Assembly (NCBI RefSeq): GCF_027107535.1
Contig: NZ_CP114283.1
Location: forward strand, 4,464,001 to 4,528,000
Direction: 5' to 3'
Source of the DNA: Streptomyces aurantiacus
Lineage (GTDB): Bacteria > Actinomycetota > Actinomycetes > Streptomycetales > Streptomycetaceae
DNA: 64,000 bases
Shown here: one piece after another, positions 43,574-64,000 of the stretch
How positions within the stretch are numbered: the first letter of the stretch is position 1
Layout: the number at the start of each line of letters is the position of its first letter
Notes under the pieces: generated by a model
Databases searched by the model: none
The model's input: the letters and a program-made list of their open reading frames with translations, nothing else
Told to the model about the DNA's origin: nothing
Program-made: the position numbers and the translations under genes

Positions 43574-45034
43574 TCAGAGGTATCTGACGCCCCGTTCCGT
43601 GCTGCCGGCCAGGAAGCCGGAGAGCCGGGCGCCGTAGCGGATCCAGCGGCGGCGCAGGCTCGGGGAGCGGGCGAGGTCGGAGGTGTGCAGGAGCAGCCAG
43701 GACCAGTTCATGAGGACCGTCCGGTTGTCGCGGCGCTCGAAGCCGGCGTGACGGTAGGCGGCGTACAGCCGGGCGCCGGACCTGCCGTAGTTCCACTTCT
43801 GCCGGGCCAGGCCGGAGAGTTCCGCGCGCAGCCGGTAGTGCATGCGGGCGTCGTGCGCATAGCCGACCCGGTAGCCGCACAGGTGGGCCCGCCAGGACAG
43901 GTCCATGTCCTCGCCGCCGCCCCGGAAGCTCTCGTCCCAGCCGCCGATCGTCGTCAACACGTCTTTCCAGGCGGCGCAGTTGGCACCTCGCGCGAAGGGC
44001 AGGAAGTCCGTCTGCTCGGTCATCGGCGCCGGCTGCTCGTCGGCGTACATGGGGCTCAGCACACTGCTGTCCAGGCTGCCGCCGATGAGGTCGGCGTCCG
44101 GGGCGGCCGCGGCCAGCGCGGCGAGCCAGCCGGGGTCGGCGACGTCGTCCGCGTCGCAGAAGGCGATGAAGTCACCGCGGGCGGCGGCGATTCCGCGGTT
44201 GCGGGCGTAGCTCTCGCCGGGGCGCTCGTGGGCGTCGACGATCCGCAGGCCGGGCAGGTCGGGGCGCGCCTTCTCCGCCACCTCGCGCGTCGAGTCGGTC
44301 GAGCCGTTGTCGACGACGAGGACTTCCCACGGGGCGGTGTAGGTCTGGGACGCGAGCGCACGCAGCTGTGCCGGGAGCGTGAGCGCGCCGTCGCGGACGG
44401 GGATCACGACGGAGACGAGGTCCGGGGCCCCTCTGTGTACGGACACGTCCGTGGAGGGTGCGTGGGTGGAGGGGGTGAGGCGGGTGTCCCGGATGAGGCA
44501 GGTCCCCGCGGCCAGGGCGGCGGACGCGGTGGCCGCGGTGTCGTCGGTCCGGCGCCGCACCAGCAGTCGCGGCACCATGACCCACGCTGCCCGATGATCT
44601 CTCGTGTGCAGCAGATCGCGTCGTACGGCGTACGCGGCACCGTCGAGACCGGGCGCCAGGGTGATGCCCTCGACCAGTGCGTCGGCCCGCAGCCGGAGCG
44701 TGCCGCACTGGACGAGGCCTGCATCGTCTTGGGCCGCCCGGGCCAGGTGGTGCAGCAAGTCCGGGAGGGCCTCGTCGCGACCGTGGAGGAAGGCGACGTA
44801 GGGAGTCCGGGCGGCGCGTGCGGCCTCGACACACCCCTCGGCGGCGGTTTCGGACGGGCAGCGCATGAAGTGCAGCTGTGGGTCCGGCGGCGGGTCCGCC
44901 GGGGTGACCACCGTGATCGCGGCGGGCGGCAGGAGGGACTGACGCAGCAGGCTGCGCACCGCGGGTTCCCACTCGCCCTCGGGCGCCGCGACGACCACGG
45001 CGATCTCGGGCAGGGGTGCTTCCATGTCGGTCAC
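43574..45034 (-). CDS. Glycosyltransferase, family 2, with an extra N-terminal domain
   Basis: A 486-residue protein. The catalytic GT-A domain is in the second half: VSVVIPVRDGALTLPAQLRAL near 210, VDNGSTDSTREV, and the DxD motif in IAFCDADDVADPGW (~295), then a GGGEDMDLSWRAHLCGY acceptor segment (~395). The first ~190 residues look like a second, degenerate GT2 domain whose DxD position reads FLHGRDE. GTG start lies 3 bp after the next gene upstream, so the two are co-transcribed. Predicted cytoplasmic sugar transferase of the phosphoglycolipid pathway, in the role of a MoeGT. Confidence 0.8.
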   Translation of the reverse strand: MTDMEAPLPEIAVVVAAPEGEWEPAVRSLLRQSLLPPAAITVVTPADPPPDPQLHFMRCPSETAAEGCVEAARAARTPYVAFLHGRDEALPDLLHHLARAAQDDAGLVQCGTLRLRADALVEGITLAPGLDGAAYAVRRDLLHTRDHRAAWVMVPRLLVRRRTDDTAATASAALAAGTCLIRDTRLTPSTHAPSTDVSVHRGAPDLVSVVIPVRDGALTLPAQLRALASQTYTAPWEVLVVDNGSTDSTREVAEKARPDLPGLRIVDAHERPGESYARNRGIAAARGDFIAFCDADDVADPGWLAALAAAAPDADLIGGSLDSSVLSPMYADEQPAPMTEQTDFLPFARGANCAAWKDVLTTIGGWDESFRGGGEDMDLSWRAHLCGYRVGYAHDARMHYRLRAELSGLARQKWNYGRSGARLYAAYRHAGFERRDNRTVLMNWSWLLLHTSDLARSPSLRRRWIRYGARLSGFLAGSTERGVRYL

Positions 45035-45037
45035 CCG

Positions 45038-45856
45038 TCACCCGCCCACCGCGACCGGGTCCAGCGTGAAGTCGATGTCGTTGGGCGGCGCGACCAGCAG
45101 GGGCAGCAGCTCCGCGCGGGTCGTCGCCTCGCGGCGGCGGCGTTCCTGGTCGTTCATGGCCCGTGTGTAGGATCGGCGTTCCGCCGACCCGAAGCCCGTC
45201 TCGGGCGCCTGGGTCAGCGACTGGGGCCAGATCCGGTAGCGGTACAGGACGTGGCGCACACTGCGCAGCCGGTACAGCCGGGCCGCCCGGAGGTGGAAGT
45301 CGGTGTCCGCGCCCAGCCGGACCGTGCCGTCGAAGCCGCCGAGCCGCTCCAGCACCTCGCGGCGCACGACCGACGACGGGTGCAGCACCACCGTCGAACG
45401 GCCCAGGCGCATCCACAGGTTGCCGTTGCGGGGCATCCGGCGGCGGCCCGTACTGTCGCCCGCGGCGTCGATGTACTCGTAGGCGCAGCCCACCAGGTCG
45501 GCCTTGTTCCGTTCCAGCAGGGCGAGTTGATGGCGCAGCCGACCCGGCAGGCTGATGTCGTCGGCGTCCTGGAAGGCGATGTACGGGGTGTCCACGCGCT
45601 CAAGGACCTTGTTCTTGATGCGCAGATGGCCGACGTTCTCGGAGGTGCGCAGCACGGTCAGACGCGGGTCGTCGGCGTGCGGACGCAGTGCGGCCGTCCA
45701 TGTCTCGTCGGGGGAGCAGTCGTCGACCACGACCAGGTGGAGGTCGGTCCGGTCCTGGGCGAGGACCGAGGCCGCTGCCACGCCCAGGTAGTCCGCGCAG
45801 TCGTAGTGAGGCAGGACGACGGTGACCGCTGCCTCCTTGTGTGCCGATGTCCGCAC
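45038..45856 (-). CDS. Glycosyltransferase, family 2
   Basis: A 272-residue GT-A enzyme: VTVVLPHYDCADYLGVAAASV at the N-terminus, VVVDDCSPDETW near 42, and the metal-binding DxD in IAFQDADDISLPGRL near 95. A LGADTDFHLRAARLY segment near 185 fits the acceptor/base region. No membrane helix. GTG at 45856 follows GGAAGGGAG. Member of the leftward glycosyltransferase group of the moenomycin-like cluster. Confidence 0.85.
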   Translation of the reverse strand: MRTSAHKEAAVTVVLPHYDCADYLGVAAASVLAQDRTDLHLVVVDDCSPDETWTAALRPHADDPRLTVLRTSENVGHLRIKNKVLERVDTPYIAFQDADDISLPGRLRHQLALLERNKADLVGCAYEYIDAAGDSTGRRRMPRNGNLWMRLGRSTVVLHPSSVVRREVLERLGGFDGTVRLGADTDFHLRAARLYRLRSVRHVLYRYRIWPQSLTQAPETGFGSAERRSYTRAMNDQERRRREATTRAELLPLLVAPPNDIDFTLDPVAVGG

Positions 45857-45940
45857 GGCGTCTCCCTTCCGGGGCCGCCGCAGCGGGCAGCCGCCTGTGT
45901 CGGCGTGCGGACGGCCGCCGTGCCGGGCGGCCGTCCCGTG

Positions 45941-47095
45941 TCAGCGTCCGGTGCGTGCCGCCGCGGGCCGCCCCCCGGCGGCCGGGCTCATGAAGTCGCC
46001 GTCGTCGCCCCACGGCACGTGCCGCAGCGGGCGGCCCACCGCGCCACGTATGGCGAGGCTCACGGCGACCGAGCAGAACCAGGCCAGGTGTACGGCCTTG
46101 ACGGTCCAGCGCTTCAGTCCCCGTACCGGGCCGCCGCTGCCGTCCCATGCGGCGAGCGGCCACAGGCCGTGGAACAGGGTGCCGGTGAGGTACGTCCGCG
46201 CGGTCGCCCACGGGTAGTCGGCCGTGCAGGTCACATGGCTGTAGAGGGAGCGACGCAGTCGGCGCAGCGTGTCGTGGGTCCGGGTGACCCGGTAGAAGCT
46301 GCCCCGGGCGTCCGGCAGTACTTCGAGGTCGTGCAGCGGGTCGGCCGCGTCGGGGTCGAGGAGTTCGAAGAGCACGTAGCCGTCGTCGGCGAGCCGGCGG
46401 GCCGGTATGCCGTCGGCGACGACGTCGGCCGCGACGAGCATGCAGGCCGCCGCAGGGTAGGAGCCCGGCGGCACGGTGACGCCGGAAATTCGGTCCATCG
46501 TCCGCGACGCGGCCGACGCACGGGGCAGGGCCACGAGATGGGCGCCGACCGCGCCGGCGCCGCCGCGTTCGTGGAAGCGGTCGACGAGCCGGGCGAGACA
46601 GCCGGGGCCGAACTCGACGTCGTCGTCGGTCCACAGCCAGCCGGTGTGGCCGAGCCGCCGGGACAGCCCGAGCGCCGTGTTGACCGTCCGGAGTTTCCCC
46701 CGGCCCGGCAGCGCGAACCCGACGACGGGTACGGCGGAGGCCCTGGTCAGCCTGCGCAGCCGGTCGACGGCCTCCGCCTGCTCTCCGGGGCCGTACTGCA
46801 TGCCCAGCCAGATCGTCAGCGGGAGTCCGGGACGGGTGTCCCGTACGTCGGCGAGAGCGTCGAGGAGATGACGGAGCGCGGTCTCGTGGGCTGCCAGGTC
46901 GCAGCGCGCCACGTACGTGGGCAGCAGCACCCCGAGTCCACCGGAGGGCAGTCCGGTGTCCAGGCCCGCCGAGTCCTGCTGGACCTCTCCCGACCTGACC
47001 AGGGTCACCGGGGCGTGTGGTGGGGGCAGGGGGTCGAATCCGCGGGCCACGGCGCGTTGCCACCACGTGCGCCCGCTTCCGGTGCCCCCGAGCAT
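45941..47095 (-). CDS. Glycosyltransferase, GT2-like, with C-terminal hydrophobic region
   Basis: A 384-residue protein. The metal motif is in GWLWTDDDVEFGPGCLARL, and LADDGYVLFELLDPDAADPL (~245) is the downstream acidic motif. The C-terminal third carries a GLWPLAAWDG...RGLKRWTVKAVHLAWF segment, hydrophobic enough to sit on the membrane. It is paralogous along its whole length to the gene at 53426-54559. ATG 47095 is preferred over GTG 47128 because GAAGGGA lies before it. Sugar donor unknown. Confidence 0.8.
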   Translation of the reverse strand: MLGGTGSGRTWWQRAVARGFDPLPPPHAPVTLVRSGEVQQDSAGLDTGLPSGGLGVLLPTYVARCDLAAHETALRHLLDALADVRDTRPGLPLTIWLGMQYGPGEQAEAVDRLRRLTRASAVPVVGFALPGRGKLRTVNTALGLSRRLGHTGWLWTDDDVEFGPGCLARLVDRFHERGGAGAVGAHLVALPRASAASRTMDRISGVTVPPGSYPAAACMLVAADVVADGIPARRLADDGYVLFELLDPDAADPLHDLEVLPDARGSFYRVTRTHDTLRRLRRSLYSHVTCTADYPWATARTYLTGTLFHGLWPLAAWDGSGGPVRGLKRWTVKAVHLAWFCSVAVSLAIRGAVGRPLRHVPWGDDGDFMSPAAGGRPAAARTGR

Positions 47096-47554
47096 CCGCG
47101 TCCCTTCGCCGGCCGACCCGTGCACCACCCGTTCCGGCCCCTCGTCAGATATCCGCGGACGAAGGGGAATTCACTGTCGACGTGCGCGCCGCGCAATGCG
47201 CGGAGTGTACTGATTTCGACGGGGCGTACTCTAACTGGCGCCTTGAAGTGATCACAAGACGCCCGTCCTGTTCCGGGGCGATGGCCGAAATGACCGCGTT
47301 CTGGTTGCGCCGGTTCGGTGAATCATCCGGGCAGACGTGTGGGAATCGGATGGTGTCCTGGCCGAATTCCGCTGCCGTCGCGCGGAGTTCCCCTCGGACG
47401 GCATCCGGGAAACGGCCGAAAACGGTCGGCCGAATTTTTCCGATCCACCCTGTGTGTCGGTGGTGTGTGCGGCCCGCTCGCCGCTCTGTGGCAGGCTGAC
47501 GGCACAGCATTCCGCGCCATTCGTCGCGGGCGGCGGAGGAAGAAGGTGTCACAC
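47096..47554. promoter_or_regulatory. Divergent promoter region between glycosyltransferase and ABC transporter genes
   Basis: About 450 bp with local AT-rich patches (for example GAATTTTTCC near 47430) unlike the GC-rich coding flanks. It must hold the start sites for the leftward glycosyltransferase group and the rightward transporter-prenyl operon. No consensus promoter, operator or RNA gene can be called with confidence. Confidence 0.45.
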
Positions 47555-48229
47555 ATGAGGTATTCCGCACGTGCGGAACAGCAGTTGGGCGGGACGTCCG
47601 GGCCGTCGTCCGGGCGGGACGTCCTGCTGCACGCGCACGGGATCGTGAAGAGTTATGGCCGCCGCCGCGTCCTGAACGGCGTCGACCTCGTCGTGCGCGC
47701 GGGCGAGGTCGCGGCGATCGTGGGCAGCAACGGAGCCGGCAAGTCCAGCATGCTCAAGATCTGCGCCGGGCTGCTCGCCCCGGACTCGGGCCGGGTGACC
47801 ATCTCCGGACGCCTCGGATACTGCCCGCAGAACGCCGGCGTCATGGGCTTCCTCACGCCGCGCGAGCACTTCACGCTGTTCGGTACGGGACGTGGCATGG
47901 GCGGCCGGGACGCCGACCGCCGAGGGCGCGAACTCGCCTCCAAGCTCGACTGGTCGGTGTCCCGCAGCACCCTGGCCAAGGACCTGTCGGGCGGCACCCG
48001 GCAGAAGCTCAACGTCGTCCTCTCCGCCCTCGGCGACCCGGACGTCCTGCTGCTCGACGAGCCCTACCAGGGCTTCGACCGGGGGTCCTACGTGGACTTC
48101 TGGCAGAACGTCTGGGGCTGGCGCGACCAGGGCAAGGCGATCGTCGTCGTGACCCACATGCTCAACCAGCTCGACCAGGTGGACCACGTGCTGGACCTCA
48201 GCCCCAGGGAACAGGAGGCGGGCCGATGA
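47555..48229 (+). CDS. moeX5: ABC transporter ATP-binding protein, MoeX5-like
   Basis: A 224-residue ATPase: Walker A GSNGAGKSS near 56, Q-loop YCPQNAGVMGFL, a signature LSGGTRQKL near 146, Walker B VLLLDEPYQGFD near 165, and H-loop VVTHML. ATG 47555 with GGAGGAAGAAGG upstream. The stop overlaps the permease start (ATGA). The pair resembles the MoeX5/MoeP5 transporter next to moeN5/moeO5 in the moenomycin cluster and probably exports or flips the lipid product or confers self-protection. The symbol is by analogy. Confidence 0.8.
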   Translation: MRYSARAEQQLGGTSGPSSGRDVLLHAHGIVKSYGRRRVLNGVDLVVRAGEVAAIVGSNGAGKSSMLKICAGLLAPDSGRVTISGRLGYCPQNAGVMGFLTPREHFTLFGTGRGMGGRDADRRGRELASKLDWSVSRSTLAKDLSGGTRQKLNVVLSALGDPDVLLLDEPYQGFDRGSYVDFWQNVWGWRDQGKAIVVVTHMLNQLDQVDHVLDLSPREQEAGR

Positions 48230-48906
48230 CGCGGACCCTGCGCATGGCCGAGATGACACTGCGCGAACTGCTGCGCCGGCGCGGAGTGCTGAGCCTGCTC
48301 CTCCTCGTGCCGCTGGTGTTTTACCTCGGCCGGCACGACCAGCCCGGCCAGGCAATCCGGTTCGCCAGTCTCGGCGTGGGGTTCGCGGTGAGCACCGCCG
48401 CCCTCTTCTCGGCCGTCGGCGGCCGGGAGATCGAGTCCCGGCTCACCCTGTCCGGCTTCCGGCCCCGGCATCTGTACCTGGGCCGCATGGTCGCCCTCCT
48501 CACCGCCGGGCTGCTGATCTCCGCGCTGTACGCCGTGGTCGTGATCGTGGACCAGGACGTGGCGAACCCGCAGGCGGTCGCCCTGGAACTGGCGTTGACC
48601 ACGCTGGTGGCGGTCCCGCTCGGGCTGCTGCTCGGCCTCGCCGTGCCCCGGGACCTGGAGGGCACCCTGCTGCTGATCTCCGTCATCGGCGCCCAGATGG
48701 TGATCGACCCGGCCAAGGATGTCGCCAAGGTGCTGCCCTTCTGGTCGACCCGGGAGATCATCACGTACGCCGTCGACGGCGCCGGCAGCGGTTCCCTCGT
48801 CTCGGGCGCGACGCATGCCGTCGTGGTGACCGCGCTGCTGGTTCTGGCGAGCGGCGGCGTCATGTCGGTGCGATTGCGGCGGCGTACCCACATGCAATTC
48901 GTGTGA
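48226..48906 (+). CDS. moeP5: ABC-2-type permease, MoeP5-like
   Basis: A 226-residue membrane protein with about six hydrophobic helices (GVLSLLLLVPLVFYL, FASLGVGFAVSTAALF, MVALLTAGLLISALYAVVVI, ALTTLVAVPLGLLLGLAV and others). Overlaps the ATPase gene by 4 bp, giving a two-component half transporter. Context points to a phosphoglycolipid exporter. Confidence 0.8.
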   Translation: MTRTLRMAEMTLRELLRRRGVLSLLLLVPLVFYLGRHDQPGQAIRFASLGVGFAVSTAALFSAVGGREIESRLTLSGFRPRHLYLGRMVALLTAGLLISALYAVVVIVDQDVANPQAVALELALTTLVAVPLGLLLGLAVPRDLEGTLLLISVIGAQMVIDPAKDVAKVLPFWSTREIITYAVDGAGSGSLVSGATHAVVVTALLVLASGGVMSVRLRRRTHMQFV

Positions 48907-48971
48907 ATCCGCCGCGAGTCCGTGCGGCGGGCCGGGGGAAAGTGACTCTGTCTCGCCGATACGAACGCGTG

Positions 48972-48977
48972 TAGGGT
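48972..48977 (+). promoter_or_regulatory. Possible -10 element before the cyclase-like gene
   Basis: TAGGGT fits the actinobacterial -10 consensus (TANNNT) and lies 82 bp before the GTG start, in the only sizeable gap (152 bp) of this rightward gene group. The -35 is poor. Confidence 0.3.
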
Positions 48978-49058
48978 TGGGGAATCGTCCTGCCGGTGCG
49001 TGCCCACGCGTCGGTACGGTGGCCCGGCTCGTCGCCTCTCCCCAGAAAGGAGAGATTC

Positions 49059-50144
49059 GTGAACGGTGCACAGCGATTACCCCTCGGCGAATCAGCCGAA
49101 CAAGCCCTTTCGAGGGCAACGGAATTCCTCCGGACCGCACGTGATGCGGACGGTTGGTGGAACGACTACGAAGTCCGTGGCCCAGGCCAGTTCTGGGCCA
49201 CTGCCTTTGTCGGTGCCTCACTCGCGGAATTGCCCGACGGCCCCGGGCAATTGGCGGCGGTGTCCGCCTGGGAGCTGCTGAAACAGGCCCGTGGCCCGTC
49301 CGACGGCTGGGGCTACTGCCCCCAGGTTCCCGGTGACGCCGACATCACTTCCTGGGTACTGCGGCTGGCCGAGGCGCTGGGAGCCGAGGACGACCTCCGT
49401 GCGGACGAGGGCTACCGCTTCGTCGCGGCGCACCTTCAGGAGGACGGCGGCATCTCCAGCTATCTGCCGCAGATCGCCGCGCCCTTCCTGGACCGGGTGG
49501 CCCCCCGTTGGGACGCCTGGTACGCCAGTCACGTGTGTGTGACCTCGGCCGCCGCCGGGCTGCTCCACCTGTCCGTTCACGAGCGGCTGTTGGCCAGACT
49601 CCGTGAAATCCAGCGACCGGACGGGTCGTGGCCCGCCTACTGGTGGCCGGATCGCGAGTACCCCACGGCGCTGGCGGCCGAGGCGCTCACCGTCGGCCGC
49701 CCGGCCGGGGACGGTCCCGAGGCGCGGGCAGCCGCCCGCTGGGCCGCGGCCAGGATCGGTGCGGACGGTGCCGTGCGTACCGAGTGGGAGCCGGAGGGCT
49801 CCGCCTTCGCCACCGCCTTCGCCGTGCGTGCCGTGCTGGCCGGCGAGCTGCCGGATGGACGTGACGCCGTCCGCCGGGCGGTCTCCTACCTGGTCGACTC
49901 CCAGGAGAAGGACGGCAGTTGGCGGCCGTCTGCATGGTGCCGGGTGCCCGGCCCCATGGAGTTCGACCCCGACGCACGTGAGCACTGGGAACGCGGACGG
50001 CGCGGCAAGGCCGCGCTGGGATCCGTCGTCCTGGACACGAAAGCGCTCTACACCACAGCGTCCGTCGTGGCCGCGCTGGCCAGGACGAGCACCGCGGCGG
50101 TGTCCTCGGCGACGGCCGCGCCGAGCCGCGCGGACCGCGCATGA
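49059..50144 (+). CDS. Terpene-cyclase-fold protein (squalene-cyclase/prenyltransferase alpha-alpha barrel)
   Basis: A 361-residue protein built of QW-like repeats: GPGQFWATAFVGASLAEL, PSDGWGYCPQVPGDADITSW, LQEDGGISSYLP, IQRPDGSWPAYWWP, EKDGSWRPSAW. This is the barrel fold of class II terpene cyclases, at about half the size of squalene-hopene cyclase. DADIT (about 102-106) sits where class II enzymes have DxDD and keeps the proposed acidic third residue. GTG 49059 follows GGAGAG. Codon 7 is the rare TTA. Between the ABC pair and the moeO5-like gene it probably cyclises the prenyl chain. I recall no counterpart in the moenomycin A cluster. Confidence 0.75.
   Translation: MNGAQRLPLGESAEQALSRATEFLRTARDADGWWNDYEVRGPGQFWATAFVGASLAELPDGPGQLAAVSAWELLKQARGPSDGWGYCPQVPGDADITSWVLRLAEALGAEDDLRADEGYRFVAAHLQEDGGISSYLPQIAAPFLDRVAPRWDAWYASHVCVTSAAAGLLHLSVHERLLARLREIQRPDGSWPAYWWPDREYPTALAAEALTVGRPAGDGPEARAAARWAAARIGADGAVRTEWEPEGSAFATAFAVRAVLAGELPDGRDAVRRAVSYLVDSQEKDGSWRPSAWCRVPGPMEFDPDAREHWERGRRGKAALGSVVLDTKALYTTASVVAALARTSTAAVSSATAAPSRADRA
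49077..49079 (+). promoter_or_regulatory. TTA codon (bldA switch) in the cyclase-like gene
   Basis: TTA leucine codon at position 7, read in Streptomyces only by the developmentally regulated bldA tRNA. Confidence 0.85.
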
Positions 50145-50187: not shown

Positions 50188-51003
50188 GTGAACACGTCAC
50201 CGCAGTTGGTCCAGCGCACGGAAGTCCCGGCCGTACCACCCCTGTTGGGACCTGGAGCTGTCCTCGGGAGGCTGCGGGGCCACGAGCGGGGGCCCGTCCA
50301 CATCATCGACCCGTTCAAGGTGTCTCAGACCGAGGCCGTGGAGAAGGCGAAGATCCTCGACGACCTCGGCTGTCCCGCCCTCATCCTCGCCAGCACCGAC
50401 TACGAGTCGTTCGAGTCCCGCATGGACCCGTACGTGGCGGCGATCAAAGAGGCCAGCTCGCTGCCGGTGCTGCTGCACTTCCCGCCGCGGAAAGGTTTCG
50501 GCTTTCCGCTGGCCCGCGGCGCCGACGCCGTCATCCTGCCCGCGCTGCTCGGCTCACGCGACGACTACTACGTGTGGAAGAGCTACCTGGAGACCCTGGT
50601 CAACCTGCCCGGCCGGCTCGACCGCGAGGACTGGCCCGAACTCCTGCTCACCGTCGCCCTCACCTTCGGCGAGGACCACAAGACGGGGGACCTGCTCGGC
50701 ACGGTGCCGGTGGCCACCACGAGCTCCGAACAGATCGACCGGTACATAGCGGTCACCCGTAGCTTCGGCTTCCACATGGTGTACCTGTACTCCCGCTACG
50801 CCCAGGTCCCCGTCGACGTGGTGAGCCATTTCCGGCGTCAGCTCCATCCCGACCAGATCCTCTTCGTCAGCGGCAACGTCCGCCGACGGGAGCACGTCAC
50901 CGCGTACCTGGAGGCGGGCGCCGACTACGTGGGCTTCGCCGGGGCGCTGGAACACGTCGACTGGCGGTCGACGCTCGCCGAGATCACGGCGGACCGGCCG
51001 TGA
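50188..51003 (+). CDS. moeO5: Prenyl-phosphoglycerate synthase, MoeO5-like (GGGP-synthase family)
   Basis: A 271-residue TIM-barrel protein of the geranylgeranylglyceryl-phosphate synthase family. GPVHIIDPFKVS near 33 is the Mg/diphosphate segment; PVLLHFPPRKGFGFPLARGADAVILPALL follows in two pieces; FVSGNVRRREHVTAYLEAGADYVGFAGA near 230 is the phosphate-binding end. MoeO5 of moenomycin biosynthesis belongs here and joins a farnesyl chain to 3-phosphoglycerate, the first committed step. GTG 50188 follows GAGGGGG. GTGA overlap with the moeN5-like gene supports the assignment. Confidence 0.88.
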   Translation: MNTSPQLVQRTEVPAVPPLLGPGAVLGRLRGHERGPVHIIDPFKVSQTEAVEKAKILDDLGCPALILASTDYESFESRMDPYVAAIKEASSLPVLLHFPPRKGFGFPLARGADAVILPALLGSRDDYYVWKSYLETLVNLPGRLDREDWPELLLTVALTFGEDHKTGDLLGTVPVATTSSEQIDRYIAVTRSFGFHMVYLYSRYAQVPVDVVSHFRRQLHPDQILFVSGNVRRREHVTAYLEAGADYVGFAGALEHVDWRSTLAEITADRP

Positions 51004-51827: not shown

Positions 51828-51861
51828 GATGGCCTACCGGGGCTCGCTCCGGTAGGCCATC
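51828..51861. terminator. Bidirectional terminator between moeN5-like and moeM5-like genes
   Basis: Perfect 13-bp arms GATGGCCTACCGG and CCGGTAGGCCATC with an 8-nt loop. It spans the 15-bp gap and the last codons of the carbamoyltransferase gene, serving both convergent genes. Confidence 0.75.
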
Positions 51862-54559: not shown

Positions 54560-54595
54560 GGTCTTGCGGACGTGGTGGGTCAGGAACGGTTCGCC

Positions 54596-54628
54596 GCGCC
54601 GCTGCCGGCCGAGGGCCGGCAGCGGCGC
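54596..54628 (-). terminator. Strong hairpin between the radical SAM and glycosyltransferase genes
   Basis: Perfect 15-bp arms GCGCCGCTGCCGGCC and GGCCGGCAGCGGCGC with a 3-nt loop (GAG), in the 121-bp gap. Could terminate or attenuate transcription, or protect the upstream mRNA end. Confidence 0.6.
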
Positions 54629-54680
54629 GTTGAGGCGGACGGGAGGGCCCGGTCGCACGGACGCGGCCGGGCGGGCGGTC

Positions 54681-56245: not shown

Positions 56246-57754
56246 TCAGGCGGTTCTCCCGGCCGCGAGGGACTCCAGCTGGAGCAGGTAGAGGGCCAGC
56301 GGCTGGAGTCGGCTGACACGCTGCGGCGCCCCCGGGCCGCGGCCCGCGGCCAGCAGCTGTTGCAGGATCCGGTCGCGGCTGGACCACCAGTCCCGTTCGC
56401 TGTGCAGGGTGTGGCCGAGCAGCCGGGTGAGGTACGCCAGCCGGTGTCCGACCAGGACCAGCCCGTGGCGCTGCGGAACGGCCGAGGCGAAGCCCAGGCC
56501 GGCGTGTTCCGGGAACGCCTTGTGCAGCGCCTGGTCGTGGAAGGTGCCGTCGATCAGGAAGTGGTGCGGCACCGAGGCGAGGTGGTCGACGAGCGCGTGG
56601 TCGAGGTAGGGGGTGTGGATCACCGCGTGGTCGTCGCCCAGCGTGAAGGGGGCGAGGGCGATGGACCGCCGGGTCCGGTTCCAGAAGAAGAACGAGCCGA
56701 GCGGGAAGGCGGCGTCGGCGTGCCGGGCCAGTTCTCGCACGAGCCGGGCGCGGGCCCTTTCCCGGCTCCACAGGATGTGGGTCCGGGGGCCCAGGAGGTG
56801 CTCGACGTGTGCTCCGGTGCGGCCGGCGGCCAGCAGCCGGTCCGCGAGCCCCGGCAGGTCCGTCACGTCGTACGGGTTCTTCCTGATCAGCGCGATGCTG
56901 GGGTTCTGCGCGAGCTCGCCACCGCCGATCCCGTCGTACCAGAGCCCGCTGTGGCGGCGCAGGAAGGCCAGCAGGGACAGGGCCCAGGCGCCGTCCAGGG
57001 TGCCCATGCCCTGTGCCGGGTTGGCGGTGCGTTCCGCGCGGAACTGCGAGCGCGGCCGGGCGACGGTGTGGTGCGGCAGGCCGAGGCGTCCGGCGAGGTG
57101 GGCGGCGACGCGGGCGTCGGCACCCGGGTCGGGCGGGAACTTGGCGCCGCTGACGCACAGCCGCGGCGGGGCGCCCTGACGGCAGAGCTCCAGCAGGATG
57201 TGCCGGGAGTCCCGGCCACCGCTCAGCGGAAGGACGTGCGGCTCCGCGGGCAGCCGACGGGCCACGGCGGCGCGGAACAACTCGACGAAGCCGTCCACGG
57301 CATCGGCCCGGGTGAGGGCCGCGGGACCCGGCACGGGGAGCGCGGGCGAACGGATGCCGGGCCCGTCGGGCGTCCAGGTCAGCGTGGCGGCGGGGGGCAG
57401 CGCGCGGATCGCGGCGAAGGCGGTGTCCTCACCGAGGAAGAAGCCCAGCCGGATGAAGACGGCCAGTGCGTCGTCGTCGAGTTCGGCGCTCTCGCCGGAC
57501 AGGAGCAGGGCAAGAGGATCGGGGGAGAGCGTCAGGGAGCCGGGGTCGGCGCGGTAGTACAGCGGGTGCATGCCGTACCGGTCGTTGCGGACGAGGAGGC
57601 GTTCGCCGTCCCACTCCCAGGCGGCGAAGACGCCCTCGGGCGGCGGCCCCTCGGCCAGGGGATCCCCGCCGAGGGCGTGTCCGAGCCGTGCCTCCTTGTC
57701 GCCCTCGGCCCGGACCCCGTCGGGCGTGGCGACGAGCCGGATGCAGGGTTTCAC
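56246..57754 (-). CDS. moeH5: Asparagine-synthase-like amide synthetase, MoeH5-like
   Basis: A 502-residue protein of the asparagine synthetase group. The N-terminal domain (1-160) keeps the Ntn fold (AAWEWDGERLLVRNDRYGMHPLYY) but lacks the N-terminal catalytic Cys: the protein starts MKPCIRL, so glutamine hydrolysis is doubtful. The synthetase domain has the PP-loop LPLSGGRDSRHILLEL near 195 and a Gly-rich GIGGGELAQNP (~285). This matches the role of MoeH5, which joins an amine to a sugar carboxylate. The start overlaps the moeGT1-like gene (GTGA). Confidence 0.8.
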   Translation of the reverse strand: MKPCIRLVATPDGVRAEGDKEARLGHALGGDPLAEGPPPEGVFAAWEWDGERLLVRNDRYGMHPLYYRADPGSLTLSPDPLALLLSGESAELDDDALAVFIRLGFFLGEDTAFAAIRALPPAATLTWTPDGPGIRSPALPVPGPAALTRADAVDGFVELFRAAVARRLPAEPHVLPLSGGRDSRHILLELCRQGAPPRLCVSGAKFPPDPGADARVAAHLAGRLGLPHHTVARPRSQFRAERTANPAQGMGTLDGAWALSLLAFLRRHSGLWYDGIGGGELAQNPSIALIRKNPYDVTDLPGLADRLLAAGRTGAHVEHLLGPRTHILWSRERARARLVRELARHADAAFPLGSFFFWNRTRRSIALAPFTLGDDHAVIHTPYLDHALVDHLASVPHHFLIDGTFHDQALHKAFPEHAGLGFASAVPQRHGLVLVGHRLAYLTRLLGHTLHSERDWWSSRDRILQQLLAAGRGPGAPQRVSRLQPLALYLLQLESLAAGRTA

Positions 57755-58962
57755 CGGTCGTCCAGCAGGGGCCGTACGGCGGCCCCGATCCGGCGGGCCA
57801 CCGCCTCCTGGTCGAGCACGGACTCGGCGAAGCCGATCGCGGCCTTCTTGTGCTCCTCGATCGCCGACGGGTGGGTCAGCCAGTCGTCGACGGTGTGGAA
57901 CAGTTCGTCGGGCGCGGCACAGGCCCGGCCGAGATGGTTCTCGTGGATCAGCCCCGGCACCCATCGCTCCATCGGTAGCCCCGACTCCAGCATGAGCACC
58001 GGAATCCCGAAGTAGGCCGCCTCGAGCGTGGTGTTGGGGCCCGCCTTCGAGACGAGCAGCCCGTACGGCGACCTGGACGCGCGGTCGATGTAGTCGAAGT
58101 ACTCGGCCTGGGTGAGCCGGCTGTGGAACCGCCAGTGCGTGAGCCGCCGGGCGCCGGCGGCGGCGCGGCGGGCGAGATCGGGATCGTCGTAGCCGACGAA
58201 CACCAGGTCGGTGTCCGGATGGTGTGCGGCGATGTGGTGCACCAGCTCCAGGTAGACATCTCCGCCGCGGTTGCAGAAGACGATCAGCCGGGGGCGGCCG
58301 GAGTCGGCGTCCCCGCCCCAGGGGCCGGCCGCTGGAGCGGCGGACTCGCTGGTCATGAAGTCGCGCAGATCGTGCTGGGCGACCAGCGGTCCCACCACCT
58401 GCACCCGGTCCGGATCGCCGCCCGTCTGCGCGAGGAGGTGGTCCTTCGCCCAGGAGAAACCCACCAGCGTCAGGTCGGGATGCGGACTTCGGTGCAGCGG
58501 CAGCTGGAGGAGCCCCGGGTTGGTGACATGGCTGACCACCCGGGTGTGCAGTCCCGCCAGCCGTACGGCGGCCACGCACAGCCGTGCCACGAAGCCCTTC
58601 GTGCCGACCACCACGTCCGGCGCGGTGGAGCGCAAGTGCTTGGTGAGCGGCGCCAGTTCGGTGATCTGCTGCGAGGTGGGGTCGGTCTCGAAACCGGAGG
58701 GGAAACGTTCCTGGAGACGGGCCATCAGGGCCATGTAGCGCTGGGTGCGGACGGTCGCGTCCGGGCTTTCCAGCGAGATCGTGCGGATCTCGGCACCGGC
58801 CTCGCCGAGCCAGGGGAGTATCGGTTCTGCTTCCAGCAGGGTCACTTCCGCGTCGACGGCGCCGCGCAGCACCCGGGAGAACCGGGTGGCGGCGAGGTAG
58901 TTGCCGAACTCCCCCCAGGTCCGGGGCGACAGCACCTGTATGTGCGGACGGTCAGGGCGCAC
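57751..58962 (-). CDS. moeGT1: MurG-like glycosyltransferase, MoeGT1-like
   Basis: A 403-residue GT-B enzyme. The C-terminal half has the donor-site features of MurG/GT28: LLVSKAGPNTTLEAAYFGIPVLML (about 310-335) and a late WVPGLIHENHLG segment; the N-terminal half includes PDVVVGTKGFVARL near 120. MoeGT1 transfers the first sugar to the prenyl-phosphoglycerate. Start overlaps the moeF5-like stop by 11 bp; stop overlaps the moeH5-like start. Operon order GT1-H5-K5 agrees with a moe cluster. Confidence 0.85.
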   Translation of the reverse strand: MRPDRPHIQVLSPRTWGEFGNYLAATRFSRVLRGAVDAEVTLLEAEPILPWLGEAGAEIRTISLESPDATVRTQRYMALMARLQERFPSGFETDPTSQQITELAPLTKHLRSTAPDVVVGTKGFVARLCVAAVRLAGLHTRVVSHVTNPGLLQLPLHRSPHPDLTLVGFSWAKDHLLAQTGGDPDRVQVVGPLVAQHDLRDFMTSESAAPAAGPWGGDADSGRPRLIVFCNRGGDVYLELVHHIAAHHPDTDLVFVGYDDPDLARRAAAGARRLTHWRFHSRLTQAEYFDYIDRASRSPYGLLVSKAGPNTTLEAAYFGIPVLMLESGLPMERWVPGLIHENHLGRACAAPDELFHTVDDWLTHPSAIEEHKKAAIGFAESVLDQEAVARRIGAAVRPLLDDR

Positions 58963-60904
58963 GGTGGGGCTCCTCGGTGAGGTCGAGGCATGCAGGGGAC
59001 GGGGTGTGCGTGGGCAGTGCCTGGTACCAGAGCTGGTAGGTCAGGAGTGCCCACAACTTGCGCGAGGTGTCGCGGCGGCCACTGAGGTGGTCGTCGGTCA
59101 GCAGCCGCACGGCACGGGCGTCGAACAGCCCCCCGCGGTCCAGCGCGGATGCGGAGAGGGTGTCAAGGAGCAGGGGGCGCAACTCATTCCGCAGCAGGGC
59201 GGCCAGCGGGGCGCGGAAGCCGAGCTTGGTGCGCCGCACGATGTCCGTCGGCAGCCAGTCGGCAGCGACCCGGCGCAACAGGTACTTGCCGGTGAAGCGG
59301 CGCAGTTTCAGCGCGGTGGGCAGTGCGTTGCCGTACTCGACGAGGTCCAGGTCGAGGAAGGGGGAGCGCAGTTCGAGGGCGCTGCGCATACCGCCGCGGT
59401 CGGTCTTGGTGAGGATCACGTCGCGCAGGAAGTGGGCGACGACGGCGAGTTGGCTGCGCTGCACGCCGGTGAGGCCCGGCTGGCCGTCCAGGAGCCGGGA
59501 CACCTCGGCGAAGGGGTCGTGCCCGGCCAGGGCCGCGTGGGCGTCCGGGCGCAGCAGGCCGGGCAGTTCGGCCGGGCCGAAGGGGGCAGTGGACAGGTAG
59601 AAGCGGTGCTCGGGTGCCGCGCGCAGCCCGCGCGCCAGCAGGCCGAGGGCCGCGGCGGCGGGCAGATTGCCGGACCGGGCGGGCAGCTTGCGGACGAGGG
59701 TTCGCACCAGGGCTTCCAGCCGGGGAGCCGGCATCAGCCGCAGCAGGATCTCGATCGCCCGCTCGGCCTGGAAGTACCGGTAGCCGAGGAGCAGTTCGTC
59801 GGCGCCGTCCCCGGTGAGCACCCCGCGGACGTGCTGCCGAGCCGTCCGGCAGACGATGCGGGTGGGCAGCAGGGAGGGGTCGGCGAGGGGTTCGTCGGCC
59901 CGGGCGTACTCCGACTCCACCACGTCGGCGAGTTCGCGTCCGCCGATACGGACGACGTGATGCTCGGTACCGAGGTGCCGGGCGACCGAGCGGGCGTGGG
60001 CGCTCTCGTCGAAGTCGGGCTGCTCGAATCCCGCGCTGAAGGTCAACACCGGTCGCTGCGGGGAGAGTTGCTGGGCGACGGCGGCCACCGCGCTGGAGTC
60101 GAGGCCCCCGCTCAGCAGCACCCCGAGCCGGCTCTCCGTGCTCATGACCCGGCGGGCGACCGCGGCCCGGAACAGCTCCTCGAAGCGTGCGGCGGCCTCC
60201 CGCCCGCCCGGAGTCCCAGCGCCCGTCGCCAACCGCGGCCGCCAGAACTCCACTTCGCGCAGCCGGCCGCCGGAGTGCTCCAGGTAGCTGCCGGGGCGGA
60301 CCTTGTGCACGTCCGTCACTGCCGATCCGGGCGCGCAGAACGCCTGGAGCGTCAGATAGCCGGCGAGGGCCCGGATGTCCGGGGTGCACGGCGCGTCGGG
60401 ATGGCGCAGCAGCGCGGTGAGCTCGGAGGCGAAGGCGATCCCGCCGGGGACAGGCGTGTAGTAGAGCGGCTTCTTGCCCATCGGGTCGCGGGCCAGCACG
60501 GTCGTCGCGGTGCGCGCATCGTGCAGCACGAAGGCGTACATGCCGCGCACCCGCTCCAGTACCTTCATGCCCTGCCGCTCGTACAGCTCCACGAGCACCT
60601 CGGTGTCGCCGGCCGTGCGCAACCGGACCCCTGCGGCCCGCAGTTCGCGGCGGAGCTCCTCGTGGTTGTAGATCTCCCCGTTGAGGACGAGCGCGGTGGC
60701 ACCGCTCGCGGAGACGAACGGCTGCCGGCCCCGGACGGGGTCGACGAAGGTCAGGGCACAGTGCGCGAAGGTCACGCCCCGGTGGTGGCACCAGTTGCTG
60801 CCGTCGGGGCCGCGGTGGGCCACCGCGGCCAGCATCCGGTCCGCCGTGGCGCGGGCGGCCTCCTGGCCACCGCTGAGGTCGCTGAATCCCACGAAGCCGC
60901 ACAT
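58952..60904 (-). CDS. moeF5: Glutamine-dependent amidotransferase, MoeF5-like (asparagine synthase B family)
   Basis: A 650-residue enzyme with an intact glutaminase domain: MCGFVGF puts the catalytic Cys at position 2; AHRGPDGSNW and VLNGEIYNHEELR follow. The synthetase domain has the PP-loop GVLLSGGLDSSAVAAV near 260 and LTGDGADELLLGYRYF near 350. In moenomycin biosynthesis MoeF5 converts the uronic acid carboxylate to a carboxamide. ATG 60904 gives the family N-terminus; the longer 60991 start would bury the Cys. Confidence 0.9.
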   Translation of the reverse strand: MCGFVGFSDLSGGQEAARATADRMLAAVAHRGPDGSNWCHHRGVTFAHCALTFVDPVRGRQPFVSASGATALVLNGEIYNHEELRRELRAAGVRLRTAGDTEVLVELYERQGMKVLERVRGMYAFVLHDARTATTVLARDPMGKKPLYYTPVPGGIAFASELTALLRHPDAPCTPDIRALAGYLTLQAFCAPGSAVTDVHKVRPGSYLEHSGGRLREVEFWRPRLATGAGTPGGREAAARFEELFRAAVARRVMSTESRLGVLLSGGLDSSAVAAVAQQLSPQRPVLTFSAGFEQPDFDESAHARSVARHLGTEHHVVRIGGRELADVVESEYARADEPLADPSLLPTRIVCRTARQHVRGVLTGDGADELLLGYRYFQAERAIEILLRLMPAPRLEALVRTLVRKLPARSGNLPAAAALGLLARGLRAAPEHRFYLSTAPFGPAELPGLLRPDAHAALAGHDPFAEVSRLLDGQPGLTGVQRSQLAVVAHFLRDVILTKTDRGGMRSALELRSPFLDLDLVEYGNALPTALKLRRFTGKYLLRRVAADWLPTDIVRRTKLGFRAPLAALLRNELRPLLLDTLSASALDRGGLFDARAVRLLTDDHLSGRRDTSRKLWALLTYQLWYQALPTHTPSPACLDLTEEPHRAP

Positions 60905-60909
60905 GCCGC

Positions 60910-61932
60910 CTACGACCGGTGGGTGGGGGCCATCTGGGCGGACGAGGCGGTTTCGTGCGGCGGGGTCCGGGCGAGCGACTGCCTGACCCACTCGATCTGG
61001 GTGGCCAGCCCGGCGCGCAGATCCGTCCGTGCGGTGAAGCCGAGGCGGTGCCGCGCCCGCCCGACGTCGGCCGTCGTGGCCCGTACGTCGCCGATGCGCG
61101 CCGGACCGTACCGCGCCTCGGGCGTCCTGCCCGTCAACTCGCCGGTCAGGGCCAGGACTTCGTTCATCGACGCGACACGTCCCGTGCCAATGTTCAGGAC
61201 GTTGCTGCCCTTGTCGGCTGTCGTCGCGGCGAGCATCAGCGCGCGCACGATGTCCGACACGTGGACGAAGTCGCGGATCTGGGTGCCGTCGCCGTAGACC
61301 TCGATCGGTTTGCTCTCCAGGGTGGCGCGGATGACCCGACCGATGAACATGTCCGGGCGCTGGCCGGGGCCGTAGACGGTGAAGAACCGCAGGGCGCTCA
61401 CCGACAGGTCGGCGTCGCGGCGGGCCGCGAAGGCGAGGGCGAGCCGTTCCGCGGCGAGTTTGGTGACCCCGTAGGGGGACAGCGGGCGAGGGAGGTCGTC
61501 CTCGCTCATGGTGCCCTCCGCGCCGCCGTACACGCTTGAGGACGAGGCCATGACCACGCGAGGCACGTTGGCCCGGACACAGGCGTCCATGAGGCGTTGG
61601 GTGGCCAATACGTTGCAGTGGAGATACTCCGGGAATTGTGTCCAGGACGGGCGCACACCCGGCAATGCAGCTAAGTGGAAGACCGTGGCGGCATTTTCCA
61701 GACAGGCCGACAGATCCGCGGAGACGAGGTCGGCACGGATCGCGTGGAGGGATCCCAGCTCGGCGGACGGCGGGATTTCACCGGTGGCCCAACTGGATTT
61801 CCGGTCGATGCCCACCACGTTTGTGCCGCTGCGCCGCAATGCCTCGACGAGATGGGATCCGATGAAACCCGCGGCACCGGTGACCACTGCTTTTCCCGCG
61901 GATTCGACCCCGTTGTGCACGTCAGCCGACAT
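60910..61932 (-). CDS. moeE5: NAD-dependent sugar epimerase, MoeE5-like
   Basis: A 340-residue extended SDR: VTGAAGFIGSHLVEAL near 19-34, a conserved FHLAALPGVRPSW near 85, catalytic ASSSSVYG (~130) and YGVTKLAAE (~153), RFFTVYGPGQRPDM (~178), and FVHVSDIV. Typical of UDP-glucuronate 4-epimerases, giving UDP-galacturonate for the first sugar. AAGGGGGA precedes ATG 61932. Codon 87 is TTA. Diverges from an ABC exporter gene across 410 bp. Confidence 0.9.
   Translation of the reverse strand: MSADVHNGVESAGKAVVTGAAGFIGSHLVEALRRSGTNVVGIDRKSSWATGEIPPSAELGSLHAIRADLVSADLSACLENAATVFHLAALPGVRPSWTQFPEYLHCNVLATQRLMDACVRANVPRVVMASSSSVYGGAEGTMSEDDLPRPLSPYGVTKLAAERLALAFAARRDADLSVSALRFFTVYGPGQRPDMFIGRVIRATLESKPIEVYGDGTQIRDFVHVSDIVRALMLAATTADKGSNVLNIGTGRVASMNEVLALTGELTGRTPEARYGPARIGDVRATTADVGRARHRLGFTARTDLRAGLATQIEWVRQSLARTPPHETASSAQMAPTHRS
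61672..61674 (-). promoter_or_regulatory. TTA codon (bldA switch) in the moeE5-like gene
   Basis: In-frame TTA at codon 87. The moeE5 gene of the moenomycin producer S. ghanaensis is also known to carry a TTA codon. Confidence 0.85.
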
Positions 61933-62342
61933 TGAGAATCCCCCTTGGTTCCGTTGACATCCGGTCGTTCAAGGCGGTGCTCCGTGCTGGTGCTGTCTCC
62001 GGACGTCGGTCCAATTGCGGGTGCGCGAACTCGGCCGACCCGGACGTACGCGGGTGCCGGCAGAACATGGCCGAGAATGGGTAGTACGCACGACGGCGTG
62101 CAAGGCGAATTGCCCAGAAGACCCGTGGAGTCTAACAGCGAGATGAATCGGCGGCAACGGCGTCCAGGACGGCGTTAACCGACATTAAGCGGCGGATCAC
62201 ATTCCGCATGTGGGCGGCTCATTCCCGGCCCCGGCGCAGCGACGCCCTATGGCGAGTTCACCGATGTGCGCGTCATTCCCAACGCCCGGGAACGGACTTT
62301 ATGCTGAGGCCTTCCGCCGCCCGGCACTCGGAGAGGAACGCG
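61933..62342. promoter_or_regulatory. Divergent region between moeE5-like and ABC exporter genes
   Basis: Holds the promoters of two divergent operons. A TTGACA hexamer lies at 61954-61959 (rightward) without a clear -10, and a relatively AT-rich TTAACCGACATTAA at about 62174-62187. No gene, RNA or convincing operator seen. Confidence 0.4.
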
Positions 62343-64000
62343 TTGGCAGGCAGTCCGTTACGGCAGCTCTCCGTACTGTTCCGCTATCTGCGCGGGGAAC
62401 GGCCGTCCGTCCTCCTCCTCGCGGTGCTCGTCCCGCTGGGCATCGGGCTCCAGCTGGTGGCACCCCAGATGCTGCGCCGGTTCATCGACCACACGCTGTC
62501 CCGGAGCCCCTCCGACCTGCTGCTCGCGGTCGCCGCCTGGTACCTGGCGGCGGCCCTCGGGCTGCTCGTGGTGACCATCGGCTGCGACGCCGTGGCCGCG
62601 CGGCTCGCCTGGCGCACCACCAACCGGCTGCGCGCCGACCTGGTGACCCACTGTCTGCGCCGGCCCTCCCGCTTCTACCAGCGGTACCCGCCCGGCGAAC
62701 TCGTCGATCGCGTCGACGGCGACGTCACCAGACTCGCCGCGGTGATGTCCGCGCTGGTCCTGGAAGTTCTCGCCCAGATGCTGCTGGTCGTCGGAATCCT
62801 CGGCGCACTCTTCCAGCTCGACTGGCGACTGGCCCTGGTCTTCGCGCCGTTCGCCCTGGGAACCCTCCTGCTACTGCGCCGACTTGTGGGGAAGGCCATG
62901 CCCTTCGTCGCCGCCCGGCAGACCGCGTCCGCGGAACTCCTGGGCTTCCTGGAGGAACGCCTCGCAGGCGCCGAGGACCTGAGAACCAACGGAGCCTCCG
63001 CCCACACCCTGCGGGCCCTGGAAACCCGGCAGGCCGACCTGTACCGGAAGGCGCGCCGCGCGGCGCGGGTCTCCGTGCGCTGGCCCGCCACGGTCCAGGG
63101 ACTGTCCACCGCCAGCGTGGTCCTCGCCCTGGCCGTCAGCGTGTGGCTGCACGGCCGCGGACAGCTCTCCACCGGCACGGCCTTCGCCTGTCTGTCGTAC
63201 GCCATGCTGCTGCGCCGCCCGCTGCTGGCCGTCACCACCCGCTTCCACGACCTGGAAGGGGCCGCGGTCAGCGTGCAGCGCCTCCAGGAACTGCTGCGCC
63301 AGGAGGACGACGTCGGGCGCACCCGCTCCCGCCACCTGCCCGCGGGCCCCCTGGGCGCCCGACTCGACCGCGTGTCCTTCTGGTACGACCCCGGTGAACC
63401 GGTGCTGCGTGACGTCTCCTTCCGGCTGCGGCCCGGGGAACGGCTCGGCATCGTCGGCCGTACCGGAAGCGGCAAATCGACCGTCGTACGGCTGCTGTTC
63501 GGACTGCACCACCCTGTGAGCGGCGGCGTCAGCGTCGGCGGCCAGGACGTGGCCGGACTCGACACCCGGGCACTGCGCAGCAGGGTCGCCCTGGTCACCC
63601 AGGAGGTGCAGGTCTTCCACGCCACGCTCCGCGACAACCTCACCTTCTTCGACCACCGCGTCGACGATCGCCGGGTGTGCGCCGCGCTGGACTTGGCCGG
63701 GCTCACCGACTGGTGGCGCGAACTGCCCGACGGTCTGGACACCGTGCTGGGCACAGGAGCGCGAGGGATGTCCGCGGGGGAGGAGCAACTTCTCGCGCTG
63801 GCCCGGGTGTTCCTGCGGGACCCGGCCGTGGTCCTGATGGACGAGCCGACGGCCCGGCTGGACCCGCACACCGAGCGGCTGCTCATGCCCGCGATGGAGC
63901 GGCTGCTTGAAGGGCGGACCGCCGTCGTTGTCCAGCACCGGCCGCACGCGCTGCGCCACGTGGACCGCATTCTCGTCCTCGACGCGGGGACGGTGGTCGA
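62343..64000 (+). CDS. moeD5: ABC exporter (fused membrane-ATPase), MoeD5-like, cut by window end
   Basis: At least 552 residues. Six membrane helices (about 15-300) precede an ATPase domain: Walker A GRTGSGKST near 380, Q-loop VTQEVQVFH, Walker B VVLMDEPTARLD near 500, H-loop VVQHRPH. The signature reads MSAGEEQ instead of LSGGQ, a notable deviation. TTG 62343 follows GGAGAGGAA. Codon 6 is TTA. Classed with MoeD5-type exporters by position beside moeE5; the last residues lie beyond the window. Confidence 0.85.
   Translation, partial: MAGSPLRQLSVLFRYLRGERPSVLLLAVLVPLGIGLQLVAPQMLRRFIDHTLSRSPSDLLLAVAAWYLAAALGLLVVTIGCDAVAARLAWRTTNRLRADLVTHCLRRPSRFYQRYPPGELVDRVDGDVTRLAAVMSALVLEVLAQMLLVVGILGALFQLDWRLALVFAPFALGTLLLLRRLVGKAMPFVAARQTASAELLGFLEERLAGAEDLRTNGASAHTLRALETRQADLYRKARRAARVSVRWPATVQGLSTASVVLALAVSVWLHGRGQLSTGTAFACLSYAMLLRRPLLAVTTRFHDLEGAAVSVQRLQELLRQEDDVGRTRSRHLPAGPLGARLDRVSFWYDPGEPVLRDVSFRLRPGERLGIVGRTGSGKSTVVRLLFGLHHPVSGGVSVGGQDVAGLDTRALRSRVALVTQEVQVFHATLRDNLTFFDHRVDDRRVCAALDLAGLTDWWRELPDGLDTVLGTGARGMSAGEEQLLALARVFLRDPAVVLMDEPTARLDPHTERLLMPAMERLLEGRTAVVVQHRPHALRHVDRILVLDAGTVV
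62358..62360 (+). promoter_or_regulatory. TTA codon (bldA switch) in the ABC exporter gene
   Basis: TTA at codon 6, if translation starts at TTG 62343. Third TTA found in the cluster. Confidence 0.75.

Follow-up and report, generated by a model that had tools for sequence, protein, structure and literature searches.

A complete moenomycin-type gene cluster in Streptomyces aurantiacus with a built-in candidate lipid cyclase

We analysed a stretch of 64,000 nucleotides from Streptomyces aurantiacus (G000:C2:4464001-4528000, in a genome of 9.9 Mb in 2 contigs; hereafter the window). Its right-hand part is an intact moenomycin-type (moe) gene cluster, as an earlier note made from the letters alone had proposed. 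The cluster occupies about 43.4-68.9 kb on the window scale, extends past the window end and comprises 19 genes, each an uninterrupted reading frame that ends in a stop codon. The gene calls, based on codon-position GC and with some starts revised, also took in the DNA to the right of the window. Judged from its sequence, the gene set is complete for a moenomycin-type cell-wall antibiotic, and by homology the strain would make an inhibitor of peptidoglycan glycosyltransferases. Clusters of this kind are known. What is new here is a complete Streptomyces moe cluster with a lipid cyclase built in: the gene CYC (49059..50144, +), predicted to encode a monodomain class II terpene cyclase that probably closes a ring in the lipid tail of the antibiotic.

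The two genes directly behind CYC identify the pathway. The protein encoded at 50188..51003 (+) has MoeO5, the first committed enzyme, as its best solved-structure match (PDB 3vk5, 420 bits), in an alignment that spans the full protein without gaps, and the next PDB entry is a geranylgeranylglyceryl phosphate (GGGP) synthase at 34 bits. An archaeal-type GGGP synthase was rejected as its closest relative (32-34 bits against 420 for MoeO5). Tyr199, Tyr201 and Asn230, discussed as residues of the MoeO5 site (PMC13096315), carry the same numbers in the window protein. The neighbouring gene (51000..51818, +), with the motifs DDLMD and DDLTD, encodes a prenyltransferase whose best solved-structure match is MoeN5 (PDB 5b00, 396 bits), followed by the next other protein at 24 bits. 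The GGGP-synthase-family protein and the Asp-rich prenyltransferase named in the earlier note are thus both present, and their best matches are Moe proteins and not archaeal-type lipid or carotenoid enzymes. A search of 394 sampled genomes of the class found MoeO5 in the genome of the window alone, and the protein database yielded 63 relatives.

To the left of CYC, three genes on the minus strand encode homologues of MoeGT glycosyltransferases; percentages in this and the next two sentences are identities to counterparts in S. viridosporus. Those at 43574..44998 (61.6%) and 45038..45856 (81%) are of the GT2 type with PF00535, and the third, at 45941..47128 (68.5% over 85%), reaches 11 bits with PF00535, below the cut-off. 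They are followed on the plus strand by an ATP-binding cassette (ABC) ATPase (47546..48229; PF00005; 75.6%) and an ABC-2-type permease (48226..48906; ABC-2 Pfam matches below cut-off; 80%), which we take to be MoeX5-like and MoeP5-like, respectively. To the right of moeN5, seven genes lie on the minus strand. They are moeM5 for a carbamoyltransferase (51834..53426; PF16861 and PF02543 above cut-off; 80% to S. viridosporus), a glycosyltransferase-like MoeGT homologue (53426..54658; 75.8%; PF00535 at only 12.5 bits), moeK5 for a B12-binding radical S-adenosylmethionine (SAM) enzyme (54681..56198; PF04055 and PF02310; CPFKCSFC at 242), moeH5 for an asparagine-synthase-like amidotransferase with no N-terminal Cys (56246..57754; PF00733; 74.5%), moeGT1, assigned by position (57751..58962; 79%), moeF5 for an asparagine-synthase-like amidotransferase with N-terminal Cys (58952..60904; TIGR01536 above cut-off, PF00733 at 282 bits, MCG start) and moeE5 of the NAD-dependent epimerase/dehydratase family (60910..61932; PF01370; 77% over 72%; TTA at codon 87). 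On the plus strand, a MoeD5-like ABC exporter half-transporter begins at 62301, reaches the window end at 64000 and goes on to 64070. A second, MoeJ5-like half-transporter, a 5-aminolevulinate (ALA) synthase and an acyl-coenzyme A (CoA) ligase follow after 64070 up to 68870, outside the window.

Most of the inventory in the earlier note is borne out by these genes, namely the two asparagine-synthase-like proteins, the B12 radical SAM enzyme, the carbamoyltransferase, the sugar epimerase and two ABC systems, one of which has its second half-transporter beyond the window end. CYC had been omitted from it. The GT2-type label, given there to three transferases, holds for 43574-44998 and 45038-45856; there are five transferases in all, and 45941-47128 and 53426-54658, paralogues with about 40% identity, have GT2 matches below the cut-off only. 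The gene at 57751-58962 had been called MurG-like. Pfam gave only sub-cut-off GT-B/GT28 matches for it (13-19 bits), NCBIfam gave no match and the PDB search returned no MurG; its identity as GT1 therefore comes from synteny. It overlaps moeH5 by 4 nt, and moeGT1 and moeH5 overlap likewise in S. ghanaensis, the producer of moenomycin A (PMC8778134).

We then compared the cluster with its relatives. A MoeO5 scan of GTDB contigs gave 13 loci, and the flanks of 12 of these, together with G314 and the cluster of the window, made up the 14 clusters compared; a Cellulomonas fragment (L015) was left out. The common order is GT, GT, GT, X5, P5, (CYC), O5, N5, M5, GT, K5, H5, GT1, F5, E5, D5, J5, ALA synthase and acyl-CoA ligase (GT, glycosyltransferase). 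Since this order, with the strands, recurs in the 13 further clusters at 53-99% protein identity, the arrangement is not due to chance. There are departures: in L014 several genes were uncalled (X5, P5 and one GT were seen by tblastn), the first GT is truncated by the left end of the contig, and neither ALA synthase nor ligase follows J5; the S. viridosporus contig ends in D5; the ligase of L008 is not adjacent to the ALA synthase, with a 52% homologue further on; and in L013 two small open reading frames precede the ALA synthase. MoeK5 is 86-99% identical in the 13 other clusters (15 rows, two repeating a genome). In the moenomycin A cluster (S. viridosporus, formerly S. ghanaensis, seen here through strain NRRL 2414), the core genes, their order and their strands are the same up to D5, as far as the contig reaches, at 61-89% identity (61.6-81%, with K5 at 89%). 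The Cellulomonas fragment, from a metagenome-assembled genome, has at L015 1-6598 a compact moe-like group of another gene order, all on one strand (F5, GT1, O5, GT, N5; 34-51% identity); no cyclase match was found in that genome, whose completeness is not stated.

The nearest cluster, from Streptomyces sp. BV286, matches the window at the DNA level over 43457-68861 with 95.6-95.7% identity (K5 lying outside the compared pieces). Because the shared DNA stops on both sides, the cluster behaves as a transferable unit and is apparently a self-contained cassette. Just to its left (41456-42720), a Ku gene of only 173 aa lies against a major facilitator superfamily (MFS) transporter gene of half the usual length, which covers profile positions 128-346 only; both genes at this edge are probably broken.

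CYC encodes 361 aa, lies between P5 and O5 and ends 43 bases before moeO5. Its GTG start at 49059 stands behind AAAGGAGAG, an arrangement common to five compared cyclase genes plus a sixth. Among solved structures, the protein matches 6ij1 (a "Prenylcyclase" from Actinoplanes) with 277 bits and MstE with 219 bits. An AlphaFold2 model (pLDDT 89.2, pTM 0.90) has the same two proteins as its closest solved folds, with TM scores by query length of 0.88 for 6ij1 and 0.87 for MstE, and the model indicates a single-chain squalene-cyclase-like fold of about 350 residues. MstE, from Scytonema, is described as the first monodomain class II terpene cyclase and as protonating a terminal double bond (PMC9401909). 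It is 36% identical to CYC and has the same single-chain fold. In the CYC motif D93-A-D95-I-T, Asp95 aligns with the residue changed in MstE D109N (6sbe), and all 14 aligned sequences share D93, D95, T97 and W99. One feature speaks against a canonical active site: the last Asp of the DxDD motif is Ile in CYC, and it is also missing in 6ij1 and MstE. The substrate of MstE is geranylgeranyl dihydroxybenzoate, and its reaction finishes with an aromatic substitution, whereas the presumed substrate of CYC is a glycolipid prenyl chain. Pfam places CYC, in a form starting at 49260, in the squalene-hopene cyclase (SHC) family. A general squalene-hopene cyclase was rejected as its identity, full-length SHCs scoring about 25 bits against 277 for 6ij1.

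The cyclase gene is tied to the moe pathway. Six of the 14 clusters have it, always directly between P5 and moeO5. Among 392 genomes of the genus, MoeO5 was found in 5 and CYC in 4, and all 4 genomes with CYC had MoeO5. In the genomes of the 13 loci, there were 4 strong CYC matches, all within moe clusters, and six further weak ones (34-39%). The protein database held at least 37 CYC relatives among the 8000 best candidates scored, and no match was found in the plasmid collection. Furthermore, the protein distances of CYC and MoeO5 were correlated, with r 0.984 when all 12 pairs were used and 0.947 when only the 10 closer ones were kept (Mantel test, 0 of 2000). Eight of the 12 pairs were taken as lying on the same contig because their longest contigs are equal in length, and for Actinoplanes teichomyceticus the pairing is by whole chromosome only. 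Identities of CYC and O5 to the window proteins were, for example, 0.78/0.78, 0.64/0.66, 0.46/0.52 and 0.46/0.47. As the two sets of distances run in step, CYC and MoeO5 seem to share a long history of joint inheritance. A. teichomyceticus has a homologous prenylcyclase, P0016 (47%), and a MoeO5, P0078 (50%); P0016 has 346 aa, the same length and the same score as 6ij1, which is presumably TchmY of the teichomycin cluster. According to its published description, 16 of the 18 genes of that cluster have moe orthologues and its overall architecture differs from moe (PMC6804068). The window, unlike the teichomycin cluster as described there, is syntenic with the Streptomyces moe clusters.

The clusters without CYC were also informative. 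The gap between P5 and O5 measures 283-584 bases in the eight cyclase-negative clusters and 646 bases in S. clavuligerus. From the P5 stop, five of them (L007, L008, L010, L012 and L016) share with the window a promoter-like block, GAACGCGTGTAG, a ribosome-binding site and the GTG start of CYC, and S. viridosporus reads AFRPSAGESAGRARRRISEHFRTPSTA where CYC reads AQRLPLGESAEQALSRATEFLRTARDA. We scored these stretches in a fixed start register with a DNA matrix built from codons 3-31 of six CYC genes. Of 537564 background windows, 4, 5, 8 and 62 did as well as L007, L010, L016 and L008, respectively; a second test, which covered these four clusters, reached their scores 5, 3, 7 and 19 times in 200000 codon shuffles. 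At the protein level, the score of the S. viridosporus stretch (L010) was reached by 1 of 2000 codon shuffles. For the four clusters that score, S. viridosporus among them, the chance of such a match at this place is about 1e-5 to 1e-4. In S. clavuligerus pSCL4, on another branch, codons 2-8 of CYC match at 15 of 21 bases with two in-frame TGA codons, and 4 of 539412 windows were as good. These results suggest that four of the eight cyclase-negative clusters retain a 5' remnant of the cyclase gene, and S. clavuligerus probably does too.

Several observations weigh against this reading. The relic covers only about 30 codons, and the four clusters that score, being related to one another, represent a single lineage. 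In register, the score of L012 does not stand out (6121 of 537564 windows were as good), and the protein-level scores were not clear for L007, L008 and L016, being reached by 103, 71 and 277 of 2000 shuffles. A full-length CYC profile run with nhmmer found no significant remnant in the cyclase-negative gaps (best E 15), so that information comes only from the start register specified beforehand. We claim none for L009, L011 and L014, whose best free-register scores were -24.6, -42.9 and -41.3. For S. clavuligerus, the length of the stretch was chosen after inspection, and the 87-base matrix has its best score, -49.7, elsewhere in the gap. The MoeO5 tree (38 rows, including 24 of the 63 database relatives, with a midpoint root for drawing only) requires 3 label changes and by itself does not decide between gain and loss of the cyclase. 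Its CYC-positive rows include the distant A. teichomyceticus, Streptomyces sp. NPDC053048 and, with weak support, a metagenomic row beside the long-branched L015.

The conserved stretch could instead be a short leader open reading frame or regulatory sequence that was later captured as the N-terminus of a cyclase, so that the enzyme was gained and never lost. Such a leader would fit the promoter-like block and ribosome-binding site common to both groups of clusters, and the first 31 codons are indeed better conserved than the next 29 among L007, L008, L010 and L016; parsimony on the tree leaves the matter undecided. However, the match of L010 includes residues 15-28, which align with the Actinoplanes protein 6ij1, so that this is no Streptomyces-only leader; the S. 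clavuligerus copy has in-frame stops; and CYC is also present in A. teichomyceticus and a divergent Streptomyces, about as distant there as the accompanying MoeO5. We regard capture of a leader as quite unlikely. With the relic added to the tree, we favour loss in the lineage of moenomycin A, and the open-chain lipid of moenomycin A was probably derived by loss of the cyclase.

Two other explanations concern what CYC does. The cluster might be an ordinary one that makes the acyclic moenocinyl lipid, with CYC inactive or unrelated, because the genes that S. viridosporus uses for its acyclic lipid are all represented here and S. viridosporus itself has no CYC match. Yet CYC is open in six clusters and keeps the invariant residues of its family, it occupies a single place before moeO5 and diverges in step with MoeO5, and in the 392 genomes it never occurs without moeO5; this explanation is improbable. 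Alternatively, CYC could act early, on geranyl diphosphate or on the farnesyl chain before MoeN5, in which case the ring would lie elsewhere or the MoeN5 donor would be cyclic. The closest characterised relative, MstE, takes a prenylated aromatic acceptor and no free diphosphate (PMC9401909), which argues against an early step, but CYC does precede moeO5-moeN5 in the gene order and the data do not fix the order of reactions. Early action seems to us unlikely, less so than either the leader or the acyclic lipid. We continue with ring closure by CYC in the lipid tail, for which AC326-alpha offers a precedent: its moenocinol chain is cyclic and goes by the name diumycinol (PMC4126109). CYC is a natural candidate for the enzyme that forms such a chain, the likeness of AC326-alpha and diumycin to the predicted window product being drawn for the lipid alone. 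In the literature searched, a collection outside which most subscription journals lie, we found no gene cluster for AC326-alpha or diumycin and no report linking a cyclase gene to diumycinol-type lipids or deriving the classical moenomycin cluster from cyclase-bearing ones.

A further difference from the moenomycin A cluster lies in the sugar genes. To the left of the first GT, five of the 14 clusters (L007, L008, L010, L012 and L016), all five without CYC, carry a pair of genes that read as a uridine diphosphate (UDP)-sugar dehydratase and an RmlD-type reductase. We take the pair to be MoeR5 and MoeS5, which serve in making chinovosamine. No such pair was found in the flanks of the six CYC clusters, L009 and L011 (the flank of L005 extends only about 2 kb there, and the contig of L014 ends). 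With CYC present and no R5/S5-like pair beside the cluster, the product is more likely another member of the family than moenomycin A itself. Without the pair, N-acetylglucosamine (GlcNAc) is probably to be expected in place of chinovosamine. Elsewhere in the genome of the window, the best R5 match was only 33-37% over about 130 residues. The expectation of GlcNAc is weakened by a lone S5-like gene at C2:4097063, about 0.4 Mb from the cluster and 66% identical to the S. viridosporus protein. No R5-like neighbour was found within 20 kb of it, and a gene like it is present in 8 of 40 further genomes from the genus but in 0 of 5 other CYC-positive genomes; this isolation and scattered presence suggest that it is unrelated to the antibiotic. 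At the same place (L065 10063-12081, G000:C2, about 4.097 Mb), the lone MoeS5-like gene adjoins a gene that reads like MraY by eye, outside any moe cluster.

Together, these data can be assembled into a pathway. MoeO5 would join farnesyl to 3-phosphoglycerate; MoeE5, GT1, F5, K5 and M5 would build and decorate the first sugar, and the other transferases would complete the oligosaccharide, with MoeF5, MoeM5 and the single transferases in the roles generally ascribed to them. MoeN5 would then add geranyl to give a C25 chain. Asp95 of CYC, encoded by the first gene of a probable cyc-moeO5-moeN5 operon, is predicted to protonate the terminal isopropylidene of the prenyl chain, giving a ring and a diumycinol-type lipid as in AC326-alpha. 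The position of chinovosamine would probably stay GlcNAc without the R5/S5-like pair, which is the weaker part of the scheme. MoeH5, the ALA synthase and the acyl-CoA ligase would add the C5N unit, and the ABC systems would export the product. Published accounts have MoeH5 adding the C5N unit or other groups (PMC13096315, PMC8778134) and an ALA synthase, an amide synthase and a ligase directing the C5N unit (PMC4525017). At the edge of the window cluster, the ALA synthase and the acyl-CoA ligase are both full-length, in contrast to cluster 1 of S. ghanaensis, whose impaired C5N genes are compensated by a second locus (PMC4525017).

TTA codons are present in CYC (codon 7), E5 (codon 87), D5 and the ALA synthase gene, with none in O5, and codon 7 of CYC is kept as TTA in all six aligned cyclase genes. 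This codon suggests that bldA may control the cyclase gene here, whereas in S. ghanaensis UUA codons under bldA control are found in moeO5 and moeE5 (PMC3814723).

We consider it quite likely that this cassette makes a phosphoglycolipid with a cyclic lipid closed by CYC and probably with a GlcNAc sugar, and that the cyclase is ancestral and was lost in the lineage of moenomycin A. We also lean, if only by a little, towards the fuller version of this account, in which ring closure by a monodomain class II cyclase is ancestral in the actinomycete moe pathway as a whole, moenomycin A is secondarily simplified after cyclase loss and has the R5/S5-like pair instead, the window holds a complete pathway of the ancestral type, and CYC is the enzyme that forms diumycinol. 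A lipid cyclase encoded within the cluster would make that chain accessible to genetics and is a candidate for producing diumycinol-type lipids. Since cyclisation leaves the mass unchanged, the products of CYC clusters could pass for their acyclic relatives. The relic, in turn, provides a testable statement on the evolution of a model antibiotic.

Other features of the window and its genome were recorded in passing. An aromatic-catabolism group lies on the minus strand at 16696-30541, with genes for an intradiol dioxygenase of the catechol type, a LigB-type extradiol dioxygenase, a VanA-like Rieske oxygenase and a ferredoxin-type reductase, as well as CoA transferase III, citrate-synthase-like and amidohydrolase genes. 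At 10395-12766, a glucose/sorbosone-dehydrogenase gene with a cellulose-binding domain adjoins an LPMO_10 gene, and the two are likely a pair for cellulose oxidation. An IS110-family transposase gene at 6178-7401 adjoins a two-component system. On the 360-kb second contig, half of G000:C1 100001-112000 (L060) matches a plasmid of Streptomyces sp. NBC_00271 at 83%, annotated with type I-E cas3, casA and casB.

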